In this document: positions 3,808-12,004 of the stretch, piece after piece
Numbering within the stretch: the first letter of the stretch is position 1
How the letters are laid out: each line of letters opens with the position of its first letter
DNA from: a bacterium
Lineage (GTDB): Bacteria; T1Sed10-126
DNA: 20,637 nucleotides
Direction of reading: 5' to 3'
Assembly (NCBI GenBank): GCA_003557545.1
Contig: PWOD01000067.1
Coordinates: 1 to 20,637, forward strand
Program-made: the position numbers and the translations under genes
The notes under the pieces: model-generated
Told to the model about the DNA's origin: nothing
Seen by the model: the letters and a program-made list of their open reading frames with translations, nothing else
The model's database searches: none

Positions 3808-5145
3808 TTATTCAGATTTTAATAGCTCTTTTTCCTGTTTGCGCTGCCGGTTAATCCGATAATTTTCACGGGATATTTCTTCCAACAAAGAACTTTCATC
3901 TAACGTTTTCAACTGACGATCTTGCATAACCTCACGGCCGGCTATCCACACATCAACTACATCGTGACCACGGACCGAATAAGCCAGCTGGGAATGAATG
4001 TTATACAGCGGTGTAAGGTGTAGCTGGTTAAGATCGATCGTGATCAAATCAGCCTGTTTGCCCTGCTCTACCGATCCTGTTTTTTCCCCTAGCCCCAAAG
4101 ATTCAGCACCTTCCCGTGTTAAAATCTGGATCAGTTTTTTCGCATCCAGAATCTCAGGATCCTTGTAATAAACTTTCTGGAGCTTACCGGCCGTATCGGC
4201 CTCACCAAAAAGATCCAGATCATTATTGGAAGCTGCTCCATCGGTACCAAGCCCGACCAGCAGATCATGTTCCAGAAACTTAACCACCGGTGCAACACCA
4301 GCGCCCAGTTTCATATTACTCTCCGGATTATGACTGATGCTCACATTATGGTCGGCCAGCAGCCGGATATCATCATCTTCCAACCAGACACCGTGGACCG
4401 CCTGCATTCGAGAGCTCAACAGGCCATTTTCAGCCAGCCAGGCTGTCGAACTCATTCCATATTTTTCCCAACTCTCTTCTATCTCACTCTTTATCTCGGC
4501 AAGATGGATGGAATATGGTACGTCCGAACCGTCTACAATCTCTTGTTTGAACCAGTCAAGTAGCTCGGGAGTGGTGGAATATGGAGCATGTAAAGCAGCT
4601 CCAAGAGTAATCCGTTCGGGAGCTGATCTCTGGATGAACTGCTTTATTTCTTTACCCCGGGGACTATCGTAATAAACATCCATAGTAGCATCATAAAGCA
4701 CTGCTCTCATCTGGCTCTGTTCAACTATTGGATAATAGAGGAACTGATGAAAACTCATATCTGCCACCGTTGTCACGCCGGCTTTTATAGATTCTGCCAG
4801 CGACAGTTTGACCCCCATTTTTTGAGTCTCATCATCCAGATATGATTTGCGAAATACATAGGTTTTTTGTAACCATTCCTCCAGGGAAAGATCTTCGGCC
4901 AATCCACGCAGGACTGACATTCGACAGTGTATATGGGTATTAATCAATCCCGGCATCAAAAGTTTACCTGACAGATCAATTCGGGTGATATCCGGATATT
5001 TCTCCAGCAGTTCACTGCTAGAACCCAGGTCAGCTATCCGTGACCCGGAAACAAGGACTGCCCCATCACTGTAATAACTATCCTCCTCATCACAGGTCAG
5101 AAGAAGTGCACCTACAAGTAAAAACTCATCATGGTCTCTAGACAT
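3808..5145 (-). CDS. Amidohydrolase, MTA/SAH-deaminase-like (TrzA/AtzA group)
   Basis: This is a cytosolic metal-dependent deaminase of 445 residues. Visible motifs are PGLINTHIH (H71, H73), LHAPYS (H186), HLAEIKSE (metal His H214 and proton-shuttle E217), VHGVW (H251) and GTDGAASNN (metal D302). The H/H/H/D metal set plus the E and H shuttles match the 5'-methylthioadenosine/S-adenosylhomocysteine deaminases. NTHIHCRMSVLRGLAEDLSLEEWLQ (residues 69-93) is the loop typical of that group. Guanine-deaminase-like or other aminohydrolase activity is possible. The ATG at 5145 has GGAGA upstream. It lies 15 bases after the related upstream deaminase, so the two are probably cotranscribed tandem paralogues. 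Confidence 0.88.
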   Translation of the reverse strand: MSRDHDEFLLVGALLLTCDEEDSYYSDGAVLVSGSRIADLGSSSELLEKYPDITRIDLSGKLLMPGLINTHIHCRMSVLRGLAEDLSLEEWLQKTYVFRKSYLDDETQKMGVKLSLAESIKAGVTTVADMSFHQFLYYPIVEQSQMRAVLYDATMDVYYDSPRGKEIKQFIQRSAPERITLGAALHAPYSTTPELLDWFKQEIVDGSDVPYSIHLAEIKSEIEESWEKYGMSSTAWLAENGLLSSRMQAVHGVWLEDDDIRLLADHNVSISHNPESNMKLGAGVAPVVKFLEHDLLVGLGTDGAASNNDLDLFGEADTAGKLQKVYYKDPEILDAKKLIQILTREGAESLGLGEKTGSVEQGKQADLITIDLNQLHLTPLYNIHSQLAYSVRGHDVVDVWIAGREVMQDRQLKTLDESSLLEEISRENYRINRQRKQEKELLKSE

Positions 5146-5160
5146 TTTCAGTTTCTCCAG

Positions 5161-6528
5161 TTAACTCAGTCGGGAGATCTGTTCGGCTGCCAGCTCGTTC
5201 TGACGTCTTGCCAGCTGCTGAAGATCAAGTGGCAAAAACTCACCATCATCAACAATAATCCGACCGTTAATTATTGAACAATCAACCTTTGGCGGATGAC
5301 AGAAGACAAGTGCTGCCAGCGGATCATGCTGAGCTCCAGCATAATCCAGTGCAGTAGTTTTTATTCCAATAATATCAGCTGCCATTCCAGGCTCAATTTT
5401 CCCAACATCATCCCGGCCGATAGCTTCGGCCCCACCCAGAGTTGCCGCCCGCAGTACATCGGTTGATGTGATAGATTCCTCATCATAATTGATCCGCTGC
5501 AATAGCAGCGCCTGGCGAACCTCAGCAAACATATGAGAGCTGTCGTTTGACGCGCTTCCATCAACTCCCAGACTGACCTTAACTCCAGCCTTCAGCATAT
5601 CGACTACCGGAGCCATACCGGAACCTAACCGCATGTTAGAGCTTGGGCAGTGAGAGATCGATGCCCCGGCCCGGCCCATTCTCTGAACCTCATCCTGATT
5701 GAGATGGATGGAATGTACATGAATTGTTTTTTCGTCCATCCAACCAAGTGATTCAAGATAATCAAAGGGACGCATACCGGTTTCTTGCAGGCAGAACTCT
5801 TCTTCATCCAACGTCTCTGCCAGATGGGTATGAAAATATACCTTATCGAACTTTTCACCCAGCTCCTTACTTTTTTTCATGATTGTATCGGTCACAGAAA
5901 AGGGTGAACAGGGAGCAACTATTATTCTCGTCATGCCAAATTTTTCGGGCTGATGATAACGGTTTATGACCTCTTCCGTATGGGACAGAATAGTCTCCTC
6001 ATCCTGGACAACACTGGCGGGGGGCAAACCTCCGTCTTCCTGAGACAAAGACATGCTTCCCCGGGTTGGATGAAACCGCAGCCCAATCTCCTGCACCGCC
6101 TCCACTTCTGCTTCAAACACCCCTTCAGGATGGGCTTCAGGGAAGACATAGAAATGATCAACTGCGGTGGTACAACCCGACATAATCAGCTCAGCAGCAG
6201 CCACCTGGGCACTGACACGAGCCATCTCGGGAGTTAAAAACTTCCAAATTTCATAAAGATATTTCAACCATTCAAACAACCTGGCATTCTGAACAGCAGG
6301 GATATTCCGGTTTAAAGTCTGATAAAAATGATGATGGGTATTAACCAGACCGGGCATAAACAACATCTCTTTACCATCAATCACCCTGTCTGGATTCCAG
6401 GCCGGATCCACTGTATCGGCAATCTCTGCTATCTCCTGGTCAACAATTCTAACCGAGACATTCTGCCGTAATGGCGCACCCACTTCAGTTACAAGATGTC
6501 CAATATTTTTAATCAGTATTTCAGACAA
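5161..6528 (-). CDS. Amidohydrolase, 8-oxoguanine-deaminase-like
   Basis: This is a cytosolic amidohydrolase of the same superfamily as its downstream neighbour. Positions are numbered from a possible GTG start at 6537. Motifs are PGLVNTHHHFYQTL (H68, H70), THLAET (H228, E231), VHSIHL (H265/H268) and GVDGSASND (D316). The stretch NIPAVQNARLFEWLKYLYEIW followed by SGCTTAVDH is typical of 8-oxoguanine deaminases and the related hydroxyatrazine ethylaminohydrolases. Purine deamination is the likeliest role, but the exact substrate is inferred. The GTG at 6537 abuts its AAGGAGA site (6538-6544), leaving no spacing. A TTG at 6528 has a 10-base spacer, like the TTG gene at 8036, so I prefer that start (455 residues). 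Confidence 0.87.
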   Translation of the reverse strand: MSEILIKNIGHLVTEVGAPLRQNVSVRIVDQEIAEIADTVDPAWNPDRVIDGKEMLFMPGLVNTHHHFYQTLNRNIPAVQNARLFEWLKYLYEIWKFLTPEMARVSAQVAAAELIMSGCTTAVDHFYVFPEAHPEGVFEAEVEAVQEIGLRFHPTRGSMSLSQEDGGLPPASVVQDEETILSHTEEVINRYHQPEKFGMTRIIVAPCSPFSVTDTIMKKSKELGEKFDKVYFHTHLAETLDEEEFCLQETGMRPFDYLESLGWMDEKTIHVHSIHLNQDEVQRMGRAGASISHCPSSNMRLGSGMAPVVDMLKAGVKVSLGVDGSASNDSSHMFAEVRQALLLQRINYDEESITSTDVLRAATLGGAEAIGRDDVGKIEPGMAADIIGIKTTALDYAGAQHDPLAALVFCHPPKVDCSIINGRIIVDDGEFLPLDLQQLARRQNELAAEQISRLS

Positions 6529-6578
6529 GTTGTCCACTCTCCTTTGAAAAATTTATCCACGCAGCCGGTACAATCAAC

Positions 6579-7793
6579 TCACAGTCGGGCGCGGGTTTTA
6601 ATCCTACTAACCTCTTTTCCGTCGGGACGCTTGACGACAGGAGCCGACGGGTCAGCTATCAGCTGAGTTCCATTGACCAGATAGCCATAGATTATCTGCC
6701 CCCGGGGAACCGGTAGTTTGGCAGCCCAGATTCCGGAACTTTGTAGCTGTAACTCTTCCCCACGCCGCCAGTTGTTAAAGTCACCCACCACTTCCACATT
6801 CCGGAGTTTAAGCTCTCCCGGCGGTTTATAACGAAACTGGTGTAATACAGTTTCTGTGACCCGATTACGTCCCTGTTTTTTTGAATGATACATGGCTCTA
6901 TCAGCTAATTCAATAAGATCTGCCAGATTGTCAGCATGAGTAGGAAATGTACTTGTTCCCACACTCACTGTCAGCTGACCACCGGGAAGACGTTCCTCTC
7001 CGGAAAACCTGGCTCTTTCAACTTTTTTCCGCAACCTCTCGGCAGTTTTCGTGGCAATCATATGATCAGCCCGGGGTAACAGAACAGCAAACTCTTCTCC
7101 CCCGATCCGGGCCACCGGATCACGCTGGCGAAAAACAGAACGAGTTATTTCACCGATTTTTTCAAGAACTCGATCACCCTGCGGATGTCCATAAGAATCA
7201 TTATATTTTTTAAAGTAGTCGATATCAAAAATAAGTACTGATAAAGGAGCATTTTTCGATCGATGAAAACCTATCAGTTCCTTCCCGCGCCGTTGAAAAT
7301 ACCCTTTTGTGGCCAGCCCGGTCAACTCATCCCGCTGCACCTCCGCCGACAACCTCTCACTGGTATGACGCAGTTTTTTAATTAACTCTCGATGAGCCTT
7401 CAACAAAAACTGCTGGTTTTTAAACAGTCGTCTTAAACTGATTAATTTTTTACGTAAACCATTGTAATCAACCGGTTGACGATAATAAGCAAAACCACCC
7501 GAGTTAACCCAGTTTAAAGCCTGCTTATCATTAAGTTTCTGACCAATCAATATTATCCGGGTCGTCTGACTGTACTTCTCGATTCGACTCAAAAAAACCA
7601 GCGGATTTGTTAAATAACGATCTTCAATAACAGCCAGCTGGATCTCATTGTTCTGCAGACTGAACTGCAGCCTCTCCAGACGTTCAAAACGGTTAACATT
7701 AAACCCCAGATCTCGAAGAATATGGCTCACCGGTGAGCCACTGCCCTTATTCTCCAGTAAAATGTTTGCAGCTAACTCCAGCTCTTTTTCCAT
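6579..7793 (-). CDS. Diguanylate cyclase: REC-like + GGEEF + CBM48-like C-terminal domain
   Basis: This protein of 404 residues seems to have three parts. Residues 1-120 have a receiver-like alpha/beta pattern, but the acidic pair and the usual Lys-Pro are altered (YRQPVD), so phosphorylation is doubtful. A helical linker follows at 120-150. Residues 150-325 are a GGDEF domain with RDELTGL, FDIDYFKKYND, an intact signature GGEEF (231-235) and an I-site RQRD (222-225) exactly five residues before it. That predicts c-di-GMP synthesis from GTP with product inhibition. Residues 335-395 (VEVVGDFNNW, a GIWAAKLPVPRG turn, YGYLVNGTQLIADPSAP) look like a CBM48/AMPK-beta glycogen-binding module. No membrane segment is seen. 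ATG at 7793 has a GAGGA site. It lies upstream of the deaminase genes without a visible terminator. Confidence 0.9.
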   Translation of the reverse strand: MEKELELAANILLENKGSGSPVSHILRDLGFNVNRFERLERLQFSLQNNEIQLAVIEDRYLTNPLVFLSRIEKYSQTTRIILIGQKLNDKQALNWVNSGGFAYYRQPVDYNGLRKKLISLRRLFKNQQFLLKAHRELIKKLRHTSERLSAEVQRDELTGLATKGYFQRRGKELIGFHRSKNAPLSVLIFDIDYFKKYNDSYGHPQGDRVLEKIGEITRSVFRQRDPVARIGGEEFAVLLPRADHMIATKTAERLRKKVERARFSGEERLPGGQLTVSVGTSTFPTHADNLADLIELADRAMYHSKKQGRNRVTETVLHQFRYKPPGELKLRNVEVVGDFNNWRRGEELQLQSSGIWAAKLPVPRGQIIYGYLVNGTQLIADPSAPVVKRPDGKEVSRIKTRARL

Positions 7794-8035: not shown

Positions 8036-8239
8036 TTGCCCCTACAAACAAACCGCTTGATCAGTTTACAAGAACTTGCCTATCATCTGAATTGGACGAC
8101 TACAAGGGTAGAATACTGGTTAAAAGAACAACCTGGTGATCTAATTGTCTATAGAAATGGTAAAAAATCTGTGGACCCGATAATTCTTGCCGAACTACTT
8201 TCTGACCGCAGTTCTATCAGACCTGCTGTTCAAAAATAA
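8036..8239 (+). CDS. Small helix-turn-helix protein (MerR/excisionase-like), TTG start
   Basis: This is a 67-residue protein. Residues 8-30 (LISLQELAYHL then NWTTTRVEYWLKE) fit a helix-turn-helix of the MerR/AlpA/excisionase type. A short strand-turn segment (DLIVYRNGKKSVDP) that could be a wing follows. DNA binding is inferred. There is no recognisable integrase or phage gene nearby, so an excisionase role is not supported. The start is TTG behind a strong Shine-Dalgarno site. The last 23 bases overlap the end of a convergent gene, so their transcripts would be antisense there. Confidence 0.65.
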   Translation: MPLQTNRLISLQELAYHLNWTTTRVEYWLKEQPGDLIVYRNGKKSVDPIILAELLSDRSSIRPAVQK

Positions 8240-8663
8240 TCCCCTGTAAATCAGGCTGCTCATCCCCCGCCAGCTCCTGGATTTTATCCAGATTATTACT
8301 GCTATATAAAACCTGGCTCTCCCCGTTCGAGCGCAGACGAATCAGTTGAACAGTAAATCTATCACTGCTATTTTCATCCCTTGAAACAGCAATGGCTGTC
8401 AGTCCGTCAGCCTTTCCCACCGAACCGTCCAAAGCCCGTAAAGCTAACAGTTCCTGCCCCGCTCTGGAAACTCGGCTCTGCTGCTCGATCCACAACTTCC
8501 GCATTAGATTTAACTGCTGCCCGGGGCGTGCTGCAGTATCCGACTGATTATAATCATCCCTGGTAGATATCCGGTTTACCCCCGGCATTTCGGAACTGTC
8601 ATCAAATAAAGTAGAAAAAGTCGCCTGATCACGTGCTCTAGATGATATACTATTTACAATCAA
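8217..8663 (-). CDS. Unknown protein, 148 aa, TTG start
   Basis: I do not recognise this protein. It is soluble, rich in Ser, Asp, Gln and Arg, and has no membrane segment or signal peptide. The first half looks low-complexity and polar. The second half (FTVQLIRLRSNGES, VLYSSNNLDKIQELAGDE) looks like a small alpha/beta fold. Support for it being real comes from a GGAGGTG site on the minus strand (8671-8677), 7 bases before a TTG at 8663, and from its clean fit into the gap between neighbours. It diverges from the gene at 8726 and converges, with a 23-base overlap, on the HTH gene. Confidence 0.6.
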   Translation of the reverse strand: MIVNSISSRARDQATFSTLFDDSSEMPGVNRISTRDDYNQSDTAARPGQQLNLMRKLWIEQQSRVSRAGQELLALRALDGSVGKADGLTAIAVSRDENSSDRFTVQLIRLRSNGESQVLYSSNNLDKIQELAGDEQPDLQGIIFEQQV

Positions 8664-8725: not shown

Positions 8726-9319
8726 ATGTATGAAATCGCTTTTATTCTTTTTTTACTGCTCTTTCTGGCACTCTACCTGACCCTTTCCAGCGAACAAAAA
8801 AAATATGATGAATTAAATGATGTAATGGAACAACCGGCTGAAACAGCTCCCAAGAAACGTGGAATTCTCTGGGAAGGAATGGAGCAGGGAATTCCGGTTC
8901 AGATTAAACGCGGAATGATGTTCCGGGACTCCAGCCGTCTGATCACTGTTGTGGTTAAACTGTCAGTCCCCTTTTATCTCCAGCTTGACCCCTGGAATCC
9001 ATTGCGCAGCCTGACCCGACGATTGGCCGAACTGCTTTCAGAAAACAAACGTATAAGCTGGGGTGAACCGCTGGATAATTTTATCATCTACACCAATTCC
9101 CCGGAGTCGGCCCGGGATCTGCTGGGACGGCTGGACGACCAACCTAAAGTTGATTCATTACGCCAGTTCCATCATCTAATATTTTCCCCGGAACATCTTA
9201 CCGCCTGGTTTTATCAGACCGATATAAATATCCCGGAGATCAAACAAAAAACAAAAATTTTTGTCAATCTATTGAAAGAATCAGGGATAGAACAACTGGC
9301 CAGCCCGACTAACGATTAA
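8726..9319 (+). CDS. Membrane-anchored unknown protein, 197 aa
   Basis: One N-terminal hydrophobic helix (residues 4-21, Phe/Leu rich) is followed by a charged linker (about 22-45) and a soluble domain of about 150 residues. I recognise no family. No lipobox Cys follows the helix, so an uncleaved signal anchor is more likely than a lipoprotein signal. Visible segments include RGILWEGMEQGIPVQIKRG, RLITVVVKLSVPFYLQLDPWNP and DNFIIYTNSPESARDLLGRLD. ATG at 8726 has AAGGAGGA at 8711-8718 with good spacing, so the start is well supported. Its stop lies 5 bases from the stop of the convergent mutL. Confidence 0.75.
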   Translation: MYEIAFILFLLLFLALYLTLSSEQKKYDELNDVMEQPAETAPKKRGILWEGMEQGIPVQIKRGMMFRDSSRLITVVVKLSVPFYLQLDPWNPLRSLTRRLAELLSENKRISWGEPLDNFIIYTNSPESARDLLGRLDDQPKVDSLRQFHHLIFSPEHLTAWFYQTDINIPEIKQKTKIFVNLLKESGIEQLASPTND

Positions 9320-9324
9320 GCGGC

Positions 9325-11082
9325 CTATCTGGGTTCAAGATCAGACAGCGACCGTCCCACCCATTTTGCCATTTCCTGATTTTTCAGTTCATAATAAACC
9401 GGACGACCATGGGGGCATAACTTAGGAAATTTTAATTTTGTCAGACCGGCCACTATCTCTTCCTGTTCACGCGGCATCAACAACTCACCACGTTTAACTG
9501 CATTCCGACAGGACATGATAGCCAGCATCTGTTTTTTCGGCTCCATAACCCGATCCTCTTTTTCAGCTTCAATAAACTCCTCAATAATTTCAAAAATCAG
9601 CTTTTTATCTGCAGTTCGACGACCTAAAAATCCTGGCACTGACTGGATCACCATCGAACTTCCGCCAAACGGTTCTATCTCCAGACCCAACTTGGCCAGC
9701 TGTGGCTGATTATCCAACAAACTTTCTCGATCTGCAGAACTCAGCTCGATTTTAAGCGGAACTGAGAGATACTGGGCTGCCTCATCTGACCGTGCTTTCT
9801 CCATATAACGCTCATACAATATCTTTTCGTGGGCATTATGCTGATCGACAAACAGCAATCCACTATCCTGCTCAACCAGCAAAAAAAGCCGCTTAAACTG
9901 TCCCACAATACGATTTTTTATTGTTGACTCGGCTTCCGTAAAATCAAATAAATCGTCCTGTGAACCGGCGCCTGCTACCATTGGACCTATGAAACGATTC
10001 TCGGCCTTAAACCTATCGATGCCAACTCCGGATCTTGCGATTTCTTCTTCACTAACAGCTCCCTGTAAATCATCCTGGTAATGCTCCTGCAGAGTATTGG
10101 AAATCGCTTCATTTACAAACTTATAGATTGCGTTACTATTGTTAAATCTAACCTCTTCTTTACGAGGATGAACATTAACATCAACCTCTGTCCCGGGCAG
10201 ATTGAAAAATAAAATCACCACAGGATGACGATCGGTAAGTACGAGCTCTCGATAAGCCTGGGTAACCGCTCGATAGAAGATCGGATCACGCACCGGACGG
10301 CCATTGACAAATAAAAACTGGTTACGTCGTGAGTAATGGACAGCCTCTCCGTTAGAAATTAATCCTGTCAATGTAAACCTGCCACTACCCCGATAATCAG
10401 CATCGATCTTTTCCAGAGGGATCAGCTGTCTGATTATTTCCCCCCCAAGGGTGGAAGCTACCCGTTCCCGCAGACCCCCGGACGGTACATTCAATATTAC
10501 CTTATCCCCCTCCCGCAGAATAAAATGAACTTCGGGATGGGCCAGGATCTTCTTTTGAACAGTTTCTATTATATGTTTTTTTTCTGTCGTCTGACTTGCC
10601 AGAAATTTTCTGCGGGCAGGAATAGTTGCAAATAACTGCTGAACAGTGACCGTGGTTCCCCGGCGTCGCCCGGCCGGTTTGACCGACGGAGGTTCCCCGG
10701 GACTTTTGGTTAATAGAGCCCCTTCCGCGCTATTATCCGTCCGGCTGCTTATCTCCATTTCAGAAACCGAAGCTATACTGGCCAGCGCTTCTCCCCGAAA
10801 ACCGAGCGTCTTTACCCGAGCCAGATCAGTCGCCGATTCGATCTTACTTGTTGTATGTTTTTTAACCGCAACAGCAAGCTCTTCCGCCGCTATACCCTGT
10901 CCATTGTCACTGATCTTAATACTATCTATCCCACCCCCGGTGAACTCAACTATGATTTTATCAGCCCCGGCATCCAACGCATTTTCCACCAGCTCTTTAA
11001 CCACCGATGCCGGCCTTTCTACGACCTCTCCGGCAGCGATCTGATTGCTTACTTCAGCAGCAAGTTTTTTTATTTTAGCCAT
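9325..11082 (-). CDS. mutL: DNA mismatch repair protein MutL (endonuclease type)
   Basis: This protein of 585 residues couples mismatch recognition by MutS to strand incision. The N-terminal GHKL ATPase has KELVENALDAG (E30, N34), DNGQGI (59-64), HTTSK (76-80) and TLGFRGEAL (92-100). The C-terminal domain has the nuclease motif as DQHNAHEKILYE (413-424): the two Glu of DQHA(X)2E(X)4E are kept, but the usual Ala is Asn. SCRNAVK (534-540) and CPHGRP (566-571) supply further metal-site elements. Incision activity is therefore likely, as in bacteria without MutH. ATG at 11082 has AGGAGAGGG upstream. No mutS adjoins it; it follows the lipid A acyltransferase by 55 bases on the same strand. Confidence 0.97.
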   Translation of the reverse strand: MAKIKKLAAEVSNQIAAGEVVERPASVVKELVENALDAGADKIIVEFTGGGIDSIKISDNGQGIAAEELAVAVKKHTTSKIESATDLARVKTLGFRGEALASIASVSEMEISSRTDNSAEGALLTKSPGEPPSVKPAGRRRGTTVTVQQLFATIPARRKFLASQTTEKKHIIETVQKKILAHPEVHFILREGDKVILNVPSGGLRERVASTLGGEIIRQLIPLEKIDADYRGSGRFTLTGLISNGEAVHYSRRNQFLFVNGRPVRDPIFYRAVTQAYRELVLTDRHPVVILFFNLPGTEVDVNVHPRKEEVRFNNSNAIYKFVNEAISNTLQEHYQDDLQGAVSEEEIARSGVGIDRFKAENRFIGPMVAGAGSQDDLFDFTEAESTIKNRIVGQFKRLFLLVEQDSGLLFVDQHNAHEKILYERYMEKARSDEAAQYLSVPLKIELSSADRESLLDNQPQLAKLGLEIEPFGGSSMVIQSVPGFLGRRTADKKLIFEIIEEFIEAEKEDRVMEPKKQMLAIMSCRNAVKRGELLMPREQEEIVAGLTKLKFPKLCPHGRPVYYELKNQEMAKWVGRSLSDLEPR

Positions 11083-11144: not shown

Positions 11145-12004
11145 CAACGATTATGAAACCAGAAATACTGTTCTGGATAGTTTGTAATCTCCCTTTCCAA
11201 CCAGCTGTTATACTGATCGATCAGAGTTTTTTCCGTTTTAACTGTTACTCCCTGTAGCGAGACAGGTAGCGGTTCCCCGGCCCTTATCTCAATAGTTTGA
11301 CTGTCGGTTCTAACTGCGGCCAGCGGAATAACCGGTGCCCCGGTTTTACGAGCAAGAAAAGCGGGCATACGAGTATTATTTACAGTTTCACCGAATAATT
11401 TGGATTGCAGCGGGCGGCTCCCTTTACTCTGGTCTGCCACCAGACCAACCGGTTCACCGGACTCCAGGGCCGCAACCAGTTTTTTTAAAGCCCAGCCGCC
11501 GGTCACCGTATTAATATTAAATGCCCGACGATTACGCTCCACCAACCGATCAACATAAGGATTATGAATCACATCGGCATAAGCTGTTAACGAACCAAAA
11601 CGGCGGGCAACCAAAACTCCTGCCAGCTCCCGGTAGCCCAGGTGAGCTGTAGCCACAATCACCCCACGGGAAGAGTTTAACCAGCTCGCTAAGATTTCGG
11701 CCGCTGGAAATTCAATTTTATCGGTTTTTAAAAGTTTTTCAGTATTCATCCACTCTATAGCTGCCTGGCAATAAAATCTATAACAGCCCGTGGCAATCTT
11801 TTCACGAACCGCTGGAGTTTTATCAGGAAAAGCTCGTTGGAGATTTTTTTCCACCATCTCCCGACGTAATCGTAAAATTTTCAGCAGAATAAAAGCTACA
11901 ATTTCTCTGGTTTTCCTTGCTATTTTCAGAGGGAAAATAGTAACCAGTTTGACCAGCAGATAGATCGGCAGATACTCAGCCAGATATCGCAACTTCCTCA
12001 TCAT
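11138..12004 (-). CDS. lpxL: Lipid A late acyltransferase, LpxL/HtrB family
   Basis: This protein of 288 residues fits the family that transfers a secondary acyl chain to Kdo-lipid A at the inner membrane. Residues 10-45 hold a hydrophobic N-terminal anchor. The catalytic HX4(D/E) motif is AHLGYRE (H121, E126). GLVADQSKG (D191, Q192) and the KTGAPVIPLAAVR segment are family features. LpxL versus LpxM specificity cannot be told. A GTG at 12013 sits on top of its GGAG site. The ATG at 12004 has an 8-base spacer and overlaps the kdtA stop as ATGA, so I take it as the start, with translational coupling to kdtA. Confidence 0.88.
   Translation of the reverse strand: MMRKLRYLAEYLPIYLLVKLVTIFPLKIARKTREIVAFILLKILRLRREMVEKNLQRAFPDKTPAVREKIATGCYRFYCQAAIEWMNTEKLLKTDKIEFPAAEILASWLNSSRGVIVATAHLGYRELAGVLVARRFGSLTAYADVIHNPYVDRLVERNRRAFNINTVTGGWALKKLVAALESGEPVGLVADQSKGSRPLQSKLFGETVNNTRMPAFLARKTGAPVIPLAAVRTDSQTIEIRAGEPLPVSLQGVTVKTEKTLIDQYNSWLEREITNYPEQYFWFHNRWK

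Follow-up and report, generated by a model that had tools for sequence, protein, structure and literature searches.

A predicted soluble diguanylate cyclase with a C-terminal CBM48 module, and its relatives, some of them linked to glycogen synthase genes

Accessory domains of many sorts are known in GGDEF proteins. The receiver-GGDEF response regulators WspR, PleD and DgcR are among the closest described counterparts of a protein encoded on contig PWOD01000067.1 (assembly GCA_003557545.1, from a bacterium of the GTDB lineage T1Sed10-126), whose 20,637 nucleotides are referred to here as the window. The protein has the receiver-helix-GGDEF layout, the GGEEF signature and the I-site in common with these regulators, but its receiver lacks the conserved Thr/Ser and Lys, and it carries an additional C-terminal carbohydrate-binding module of family 48 (CBM48). 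The best sequence match of this C-terminal part is the glycogen-binding domain of the AMPK beta-subunit (also CBM48; PDB 1z0n, 2f15), with which it shares the FNNW motif containing W100 and a DPS motif. Unlike the AMPK domain, it is fused to a cyclase instead of belonging to a kinase subunit, and AMPK residue K126 is replaced by Gly, W133 by Leu, and N150 is apparently lost. The c-di-GMP-regulated glycogen enzyme GlgX of Streptomyces likewise has a CBM_48 domain, but there c-di-GMP (cyclic di-GMP) is the ligand of the enzyme (PMC9530166), whereas here the cyclase itself bears the glucan-type module. The same paper describes second-messenger action on bacterial glycogen as a big gap.

No description of a GGDEF-CBM48 protein was found in the open-licence papers searched, mainly by title and abstract; domain databases may list the combination automatically. 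GH126 proteins with a C-terminal GGDEF domain exist but lack a CBM (PMC7479077). The GGDEF-CBM48 architecture is real, is not unique to the window and is under-described, and the window protein is an atypical member. That the wider family senses glucan is plausible, but for the window protein it is unlikely. The gene and its parts are as follows.

6579-7793, minus strand: GGDEF-CBM48 cyclase gene, 404 amino acids, with receiver-like domain, coiled-coil helix, GGDEF and CBM48 (open reading frame (ORF) list, Pfam, AlphaFold2)
7419-7793, minus strand: degenerate receiver-like domain, residues 1-125, with a (beta-alpha)5 pattern and the canonical Thr/Ser and Lys absent (Pfam, AlphaFold2, alignment)
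7338-7466, minus strand: long helix between receiver and GGDEF, residues 110-152 (AlphaFold2)
6855-7343, minus strand: GGDEF catalytic domain, residues 151-313 (Pfam, alignment, fold search)
6594-6836, minus strand: CBM48/AMPK1_CBM domain, residues ~320-400, with W342 (AMPK W100) kept and G370 (K126) and L378 (W133) changed (Pfam, phmmer, alignment)

A Pfam scan of the full protein (24,736 families, curated cut-offs) placed both relevant families over their thresholds in the C-terminal part: PF16561 (AMPK1_CBM) at residues 331-399 (E = 3.2e-6, 27.7 bits against a cut-off of 26.8) and PF02922 (CBM_48) at residues 332-382 (2.7e-5, 24.8 against 22.4 bits). The scores rose to 32.0 and 28.4 bits, respectively, when the C-terminal segment was scanned alone. 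AMPK beta-2 was the top PDB match of the domain (phmmer, 2.7e-4), and a family profile of seven members matched it at 9.8e-10. A reading made from the sequence alone (the sequence-only reading) had proposed an AMPK-type CBM48 module at about residues 335-395, and this profile search bears it out, except that the module starts slightly earlier, at about residue 320.

Structure prediction from the two orthologs alone was poor (predicted local distance difference test, pLDDT, 45) and was replaced by a prediction from a 38-row alignment, which gave a mean pLDDT of 92.4 and a model composed of the receiver-like domain, helix 110-152, GGDEF and a beta-rich domain. The predicted template modelling score of 0.68 makes the relative placement of the domains less certain than the individual domains. 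The best PDB fold matches of the model were 3bre, 3i5a, 2wb4 and 6zxb; GGDEF matches took up the fold-search lists, which barely reached the CBM region, where AlphaFold2 predicts seven strands at high pLDDT. In the model a single unbroken strand (312-322) leaves the end of GGDEF and enters the CBM, and in all lineages only about 6-8 residues separate the GGDEF and CBM profile matches. Because of this strand and the short junction common to all lineages, a rigid link between the two domains is likely.

In the cyclase core, PF00990 (GGDEF) matched residues 153-311 at E = 4.9e-42 (143.9 bits against a cut-off of 23.8) and TIGR00254 of NCBIfam was in agreement (2.1e-44). The GGEEF signature (residues 231-235) and the I-site (R222xxD225) are intact, as the sequence-only reading had stated, and the metal- and guanine-binding residues D190, N198, D199, E234 and K305 are conserved. 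With all of these residues in place, the core should be active and product-inhibited. The same reading had called the receiver degenerate, and the N-terminal part indeed matched Response_reg only below threshold (13.5 bits against 30.2) and has Gly84 and Gln106 (Met in the ortholog) at the expected Thr/Ser and Lys places, these positions being inferred from strand ends. Its predicted secondary structure nevertheless follows the alternating receiver pattern, and NCBIfam recognized a PleD-like layout from residue 22 onward, although far under that model's own cut-off.

The only other sampled genome of the same phylum (hereafter the sister genome) encodes an ortholog in syntenic position, built of the same four parts and 45% identical, so the architecture is not a product of chance. 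Identity between the orthologs is 30% in the receiver-like domain, 55% in GGDEF and 42% in the CBM, and the CBM, being better conserved than the receiver, still seems to matter.

The architecture was sought in other phyla with a profile of the GGDEF end plus the CBM over 386 genomes spread across Bacteria. Matches spanning both parts were found in genomes G284, G147 (GAF-GAF-GGDEF-CBM), G205, G183 and G038, and Pfam confirmed GGDEF and CBM in all four proteins scanned (G205, G183, G038, and G147). In total, 13 of the sampled genomes beyond the window's phylum carry the fusion, and they represent at least three other lineages. G183 and G038 are both of the sampled genomes of one phylum, while in the phylum of G205 (45 genomes) the fusion is present in seven of the eight genomes of the G205 family and in one genome in each of two further families. 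GGDEF-only relatives from the contig scan had no fused CBM, and a plasmid search by tblastn returned only ordinary cyclases among the matches listed.

In the G205 family, the glycogen synthase gene glgA is immediately upstream of the cyclase gene, on the same strand, at all six testable loci (L182, L215, L216, L217, L218, and L219), which represent four genera; at a seventh locus the contig breaks off within the cyclase gene. The glycogen synthase next to the L182 cyclase matches PF08323 at 2.8e-93. These glgA-linked proteins (e.g., L182:4364-5626) have GGDEF followed by CBM48 across the same short junction as in the window protein, but have a different N-terminal region and intact glycan contacts in addition to the adjoining glgA. 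Glycosyltransferase family GT5 is also present in the genomes of G147, G284, G183, G405, G406, and G411, and was not found in G038, a genome that is 87% complete; thus the fused relatives outside the window's lineage are nearly all in genomes with a glycogen synthase. Of the two, the glgA-linked family is of more interest than the window protein. A cyclase that brings its own glycogen-binding module and apparently shares an operon with glgA would allow a direct physical link to be tested.

The residues that contact glycogen separate the window's lineage from these relatives. The passages of PMC4032982 on rat AMPK beta-1 give W100, K126, W133, and N150 as critical glycogen contacts confirmed by mutation. 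After removal of duplicates, 13 fused proteins outside the window's lineage could be compared with the two members of that lineage. W100 is present in every fused protein. K126 is kept in 13 of the 13 outside the lineage and W133 in 12, the exception being a Phe in L192/L221, whereas in both members of the window's lineage Gly replaces K126 and Leu replaces W133. The fourth contact, N150, is more variable: the glgA-linked family and G405/G406 have Asn there, but G147, G284, G183, G038, and the window's lineage do not. In the window protein a Val aligns at this position, so that only W100 of the four contacts is retained. The same passages describe starch binding by a plant SnRK1 subunit without K126 and N150, though this subunit retains W133.

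Seven of 70 unfused CBM48 rows lacked both Lys/Arg at 126 and an aromatic residue at 133, most of them being small proteins in which a single hydrophobic segment precedes the CBM. Small proteins of about 180-250 amino acids that combine a single membrane segment with CBM48 at the C-terminus are widespread (L163, L165, L171, L172, L177, L178, L195, and L223); some have a zinc-finger-like anti-sigma N-terminus, and several are without the glycan contacts.

The glycogen genes of the two genomes were searched family by family (GT5, PF08323; GT35, PF00343; and the glycoside hydrolases GH13, PF00128, and GH57, PF03065). None of the four matched in the window genome, a draft of 91.9% completeness, whereas the sister genome has all four at three places, on contigs C41 (GT5 and two GH57), C47 and C16. 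With 8% of the genome missing and the places taken as independent, the estimated chance of missing all three through gaps is about 5 in 10,000, and true loss of the glycogen pathway in the window genome is accordingly more likely. As the sister genome has the same CBM residue changes and still has the glycogen genes, the changes arose before, or apart from, the loss of the pathway.

We suggest that the gene product is a soluble diguanylate cyclase in which the degenerate receiver and the long helix probably keep the dimer largely independent of phosphorylation. No stretch of the 404 residues is hydrophobic enough for a transmembrane segment by a hydrophobicity check, and any ligand of the C-terminal domain should therefore be cytoplasmic. 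Judging from the model, in which a continuous strand joins CBM48 to the cyclase, a bound ligand could directly move or position GGDEF. In the relatives from other phyla, the conserved contacts and the glgA gene adjoining in one family indicate that the module most likely binds alpha-glucan, and c-di-GMP would then be made on the glycogen, or its synthesis tied to carbon storage. For the window's lineage, with the contact set broken and the glycogen pathway apparently lost from the window genome, the domain would most likely be a protein-binding, other-ligand-binding or structural module and not a glycogen sensor. Taken whole, this proposal of glucan-linked cyclases in the relatives and a non-glycogen role for the window CBM is the one we favour, with moderate confidence. 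The sequence-only reading, that a glucan module tunes or places the cyclase, is well supported for the relatives in other phyla, where a glgA-linked family with conserved contacts exists, and is weak for the window protein itself, in which K126 and W133 are replaced, N150 is apparently lost and GT5, GT35, GH13, and GH57 went undetected.

Several points nevertheless weigh against a non-glycogen role here, namely the draft state of the window genome, the glycogen genes of a sister with the same residue changes, the kept W100, and the starch-binding plant SnRK1 subunit, which dispenses with K126 and N150 though it has W133. They leave some room for the window CBM to bind alpha-glucan, its own or an imported maltodextrin, and so to tune c-di-GMP output or place the enzyme on glycogen, in keeping with the AMPK1_CBM cut-off that was passed, the glycogen locus in the sister genome and the relatives linked to glgA. 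We consider this unlikely, given that K126 and W133 are replaced in both orthologs and that all four enzyme families escaped detection in the window genome. The joint loss of binding residues and pathway could also mean that the CBM is a decaying, functionless remnant left after glycogen metabolism was lost, but the frame is intact in both genomes, the CBM is still over the Pfam cut-off and better conserved than the receiver, and the residue changes, being common to a sister with glycogen genes, are not a consequence of pathway loss; a remnant is thus quite improbable. If the preferred non-glycogen role holds, the window member would be a natural negative control for glycogen binding by its relatives.

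The origin of the fusion was addressed with quick trees only. Fused proteins are scattered on both trees (five changes for GGDEF and three for the CBM), the window's lineage stands apart in each, and the forks are weak. Compatible with the preferred reading, the lineage may have taken its CBM from the small, single-membrane-segment, anti-sigma-like CBM48 proteins, independently of the glgA-linked fusions. Its CBM groups with these proteins (Shimodaira-Hasegawa-like approximate likelihood ratio test, SH-aLRT, 93) and not with the other fused CBMs, the fused groups are likewise scattered for GGDEF, and most of the seven contact-lacking unfused CBMs belong to this class. However, the CBM tree has only 82 columns behind it, the GGDEF tree does not reject a fusion that arose once (approximately unbiased test, p-AU 0.159), and the short GGDEF-CBM spacing is the same in all lineages, and we hold this origin to be a serious candidate that falls somewhat short of an even chance. 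A broader picture, in which GGDEF-CBM48 proteins are cross-phylum, glycogen-anchored cyclases that report carbon storage via c-di-GMP and were built more than once, with the glucan module re-targeted and the rigid cyclase link kept in the window's lineage, is offered only tentatively and may well prove wrong.

The cyclase ORF has an ATG start with a plausible GAGG upstream and lies exactly at 6579-7793, as the sequence-only reading had given; that reading left the strand unstated, and it is the minus strand, the plus strand of this interval having many stops. A promoter-like site, by consensus match only, lies upstream at 7854-7827, and an Rfam scan of the window detected neither a riboswitch nor any other RNA. 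Two genes follow the cyclase gene.

5161-6537, minus strand: 8-oxoguanine deaminase gene, 41 bp downstream of the cyclase gene, a possible operon partner (NCBIfam)
3808-5145, minus strand: TRZ/ATZ-family amidohydrolase gene, 15 bp beyond the deaminase gene (ORF list, NCBIfam)

The deaminase assignment comes from NF006055 (594 bits against a cut-off of 532). The order cyclase, deaminase, amidohydrolase is the same in the sister genome, where the first gap is 281 bp compared to 41 bp in the window, and because of this wider gap an operon of the cyclase and the two amidohydrolase genes is no more than a possibility. Both genes (3808-6537) are of purine-deaminase type and adjoin a GTP-consuming cyclase, which may point to a link between purine salvage and c-di-GMP.

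On the other side, a small TTG-start ORF of about 67 amino acids (8036-8238, plus strand) diverges from the cyclase gene; it has a strong Shine-Dalgarno sequence and the look of a helix-turn-helix protein, and the sister genome has a similar ORF in the corresponding position (L107, near 11500). Between the cyclase gene and mutL, the ORFs at 8217-8663 (minus strand) and 8726-9319 (plus strand) have no NCBIfam match and have counterparts in the sister genome. Similar translated stretches of the PPSRGEKG/PSRGEG type recur in intergenic regions of L107 (~1634-1800, 9720-10000, and 11207-11700), and these are probably a dispersed repeat that widens the gap beside the sister cyclase gene.
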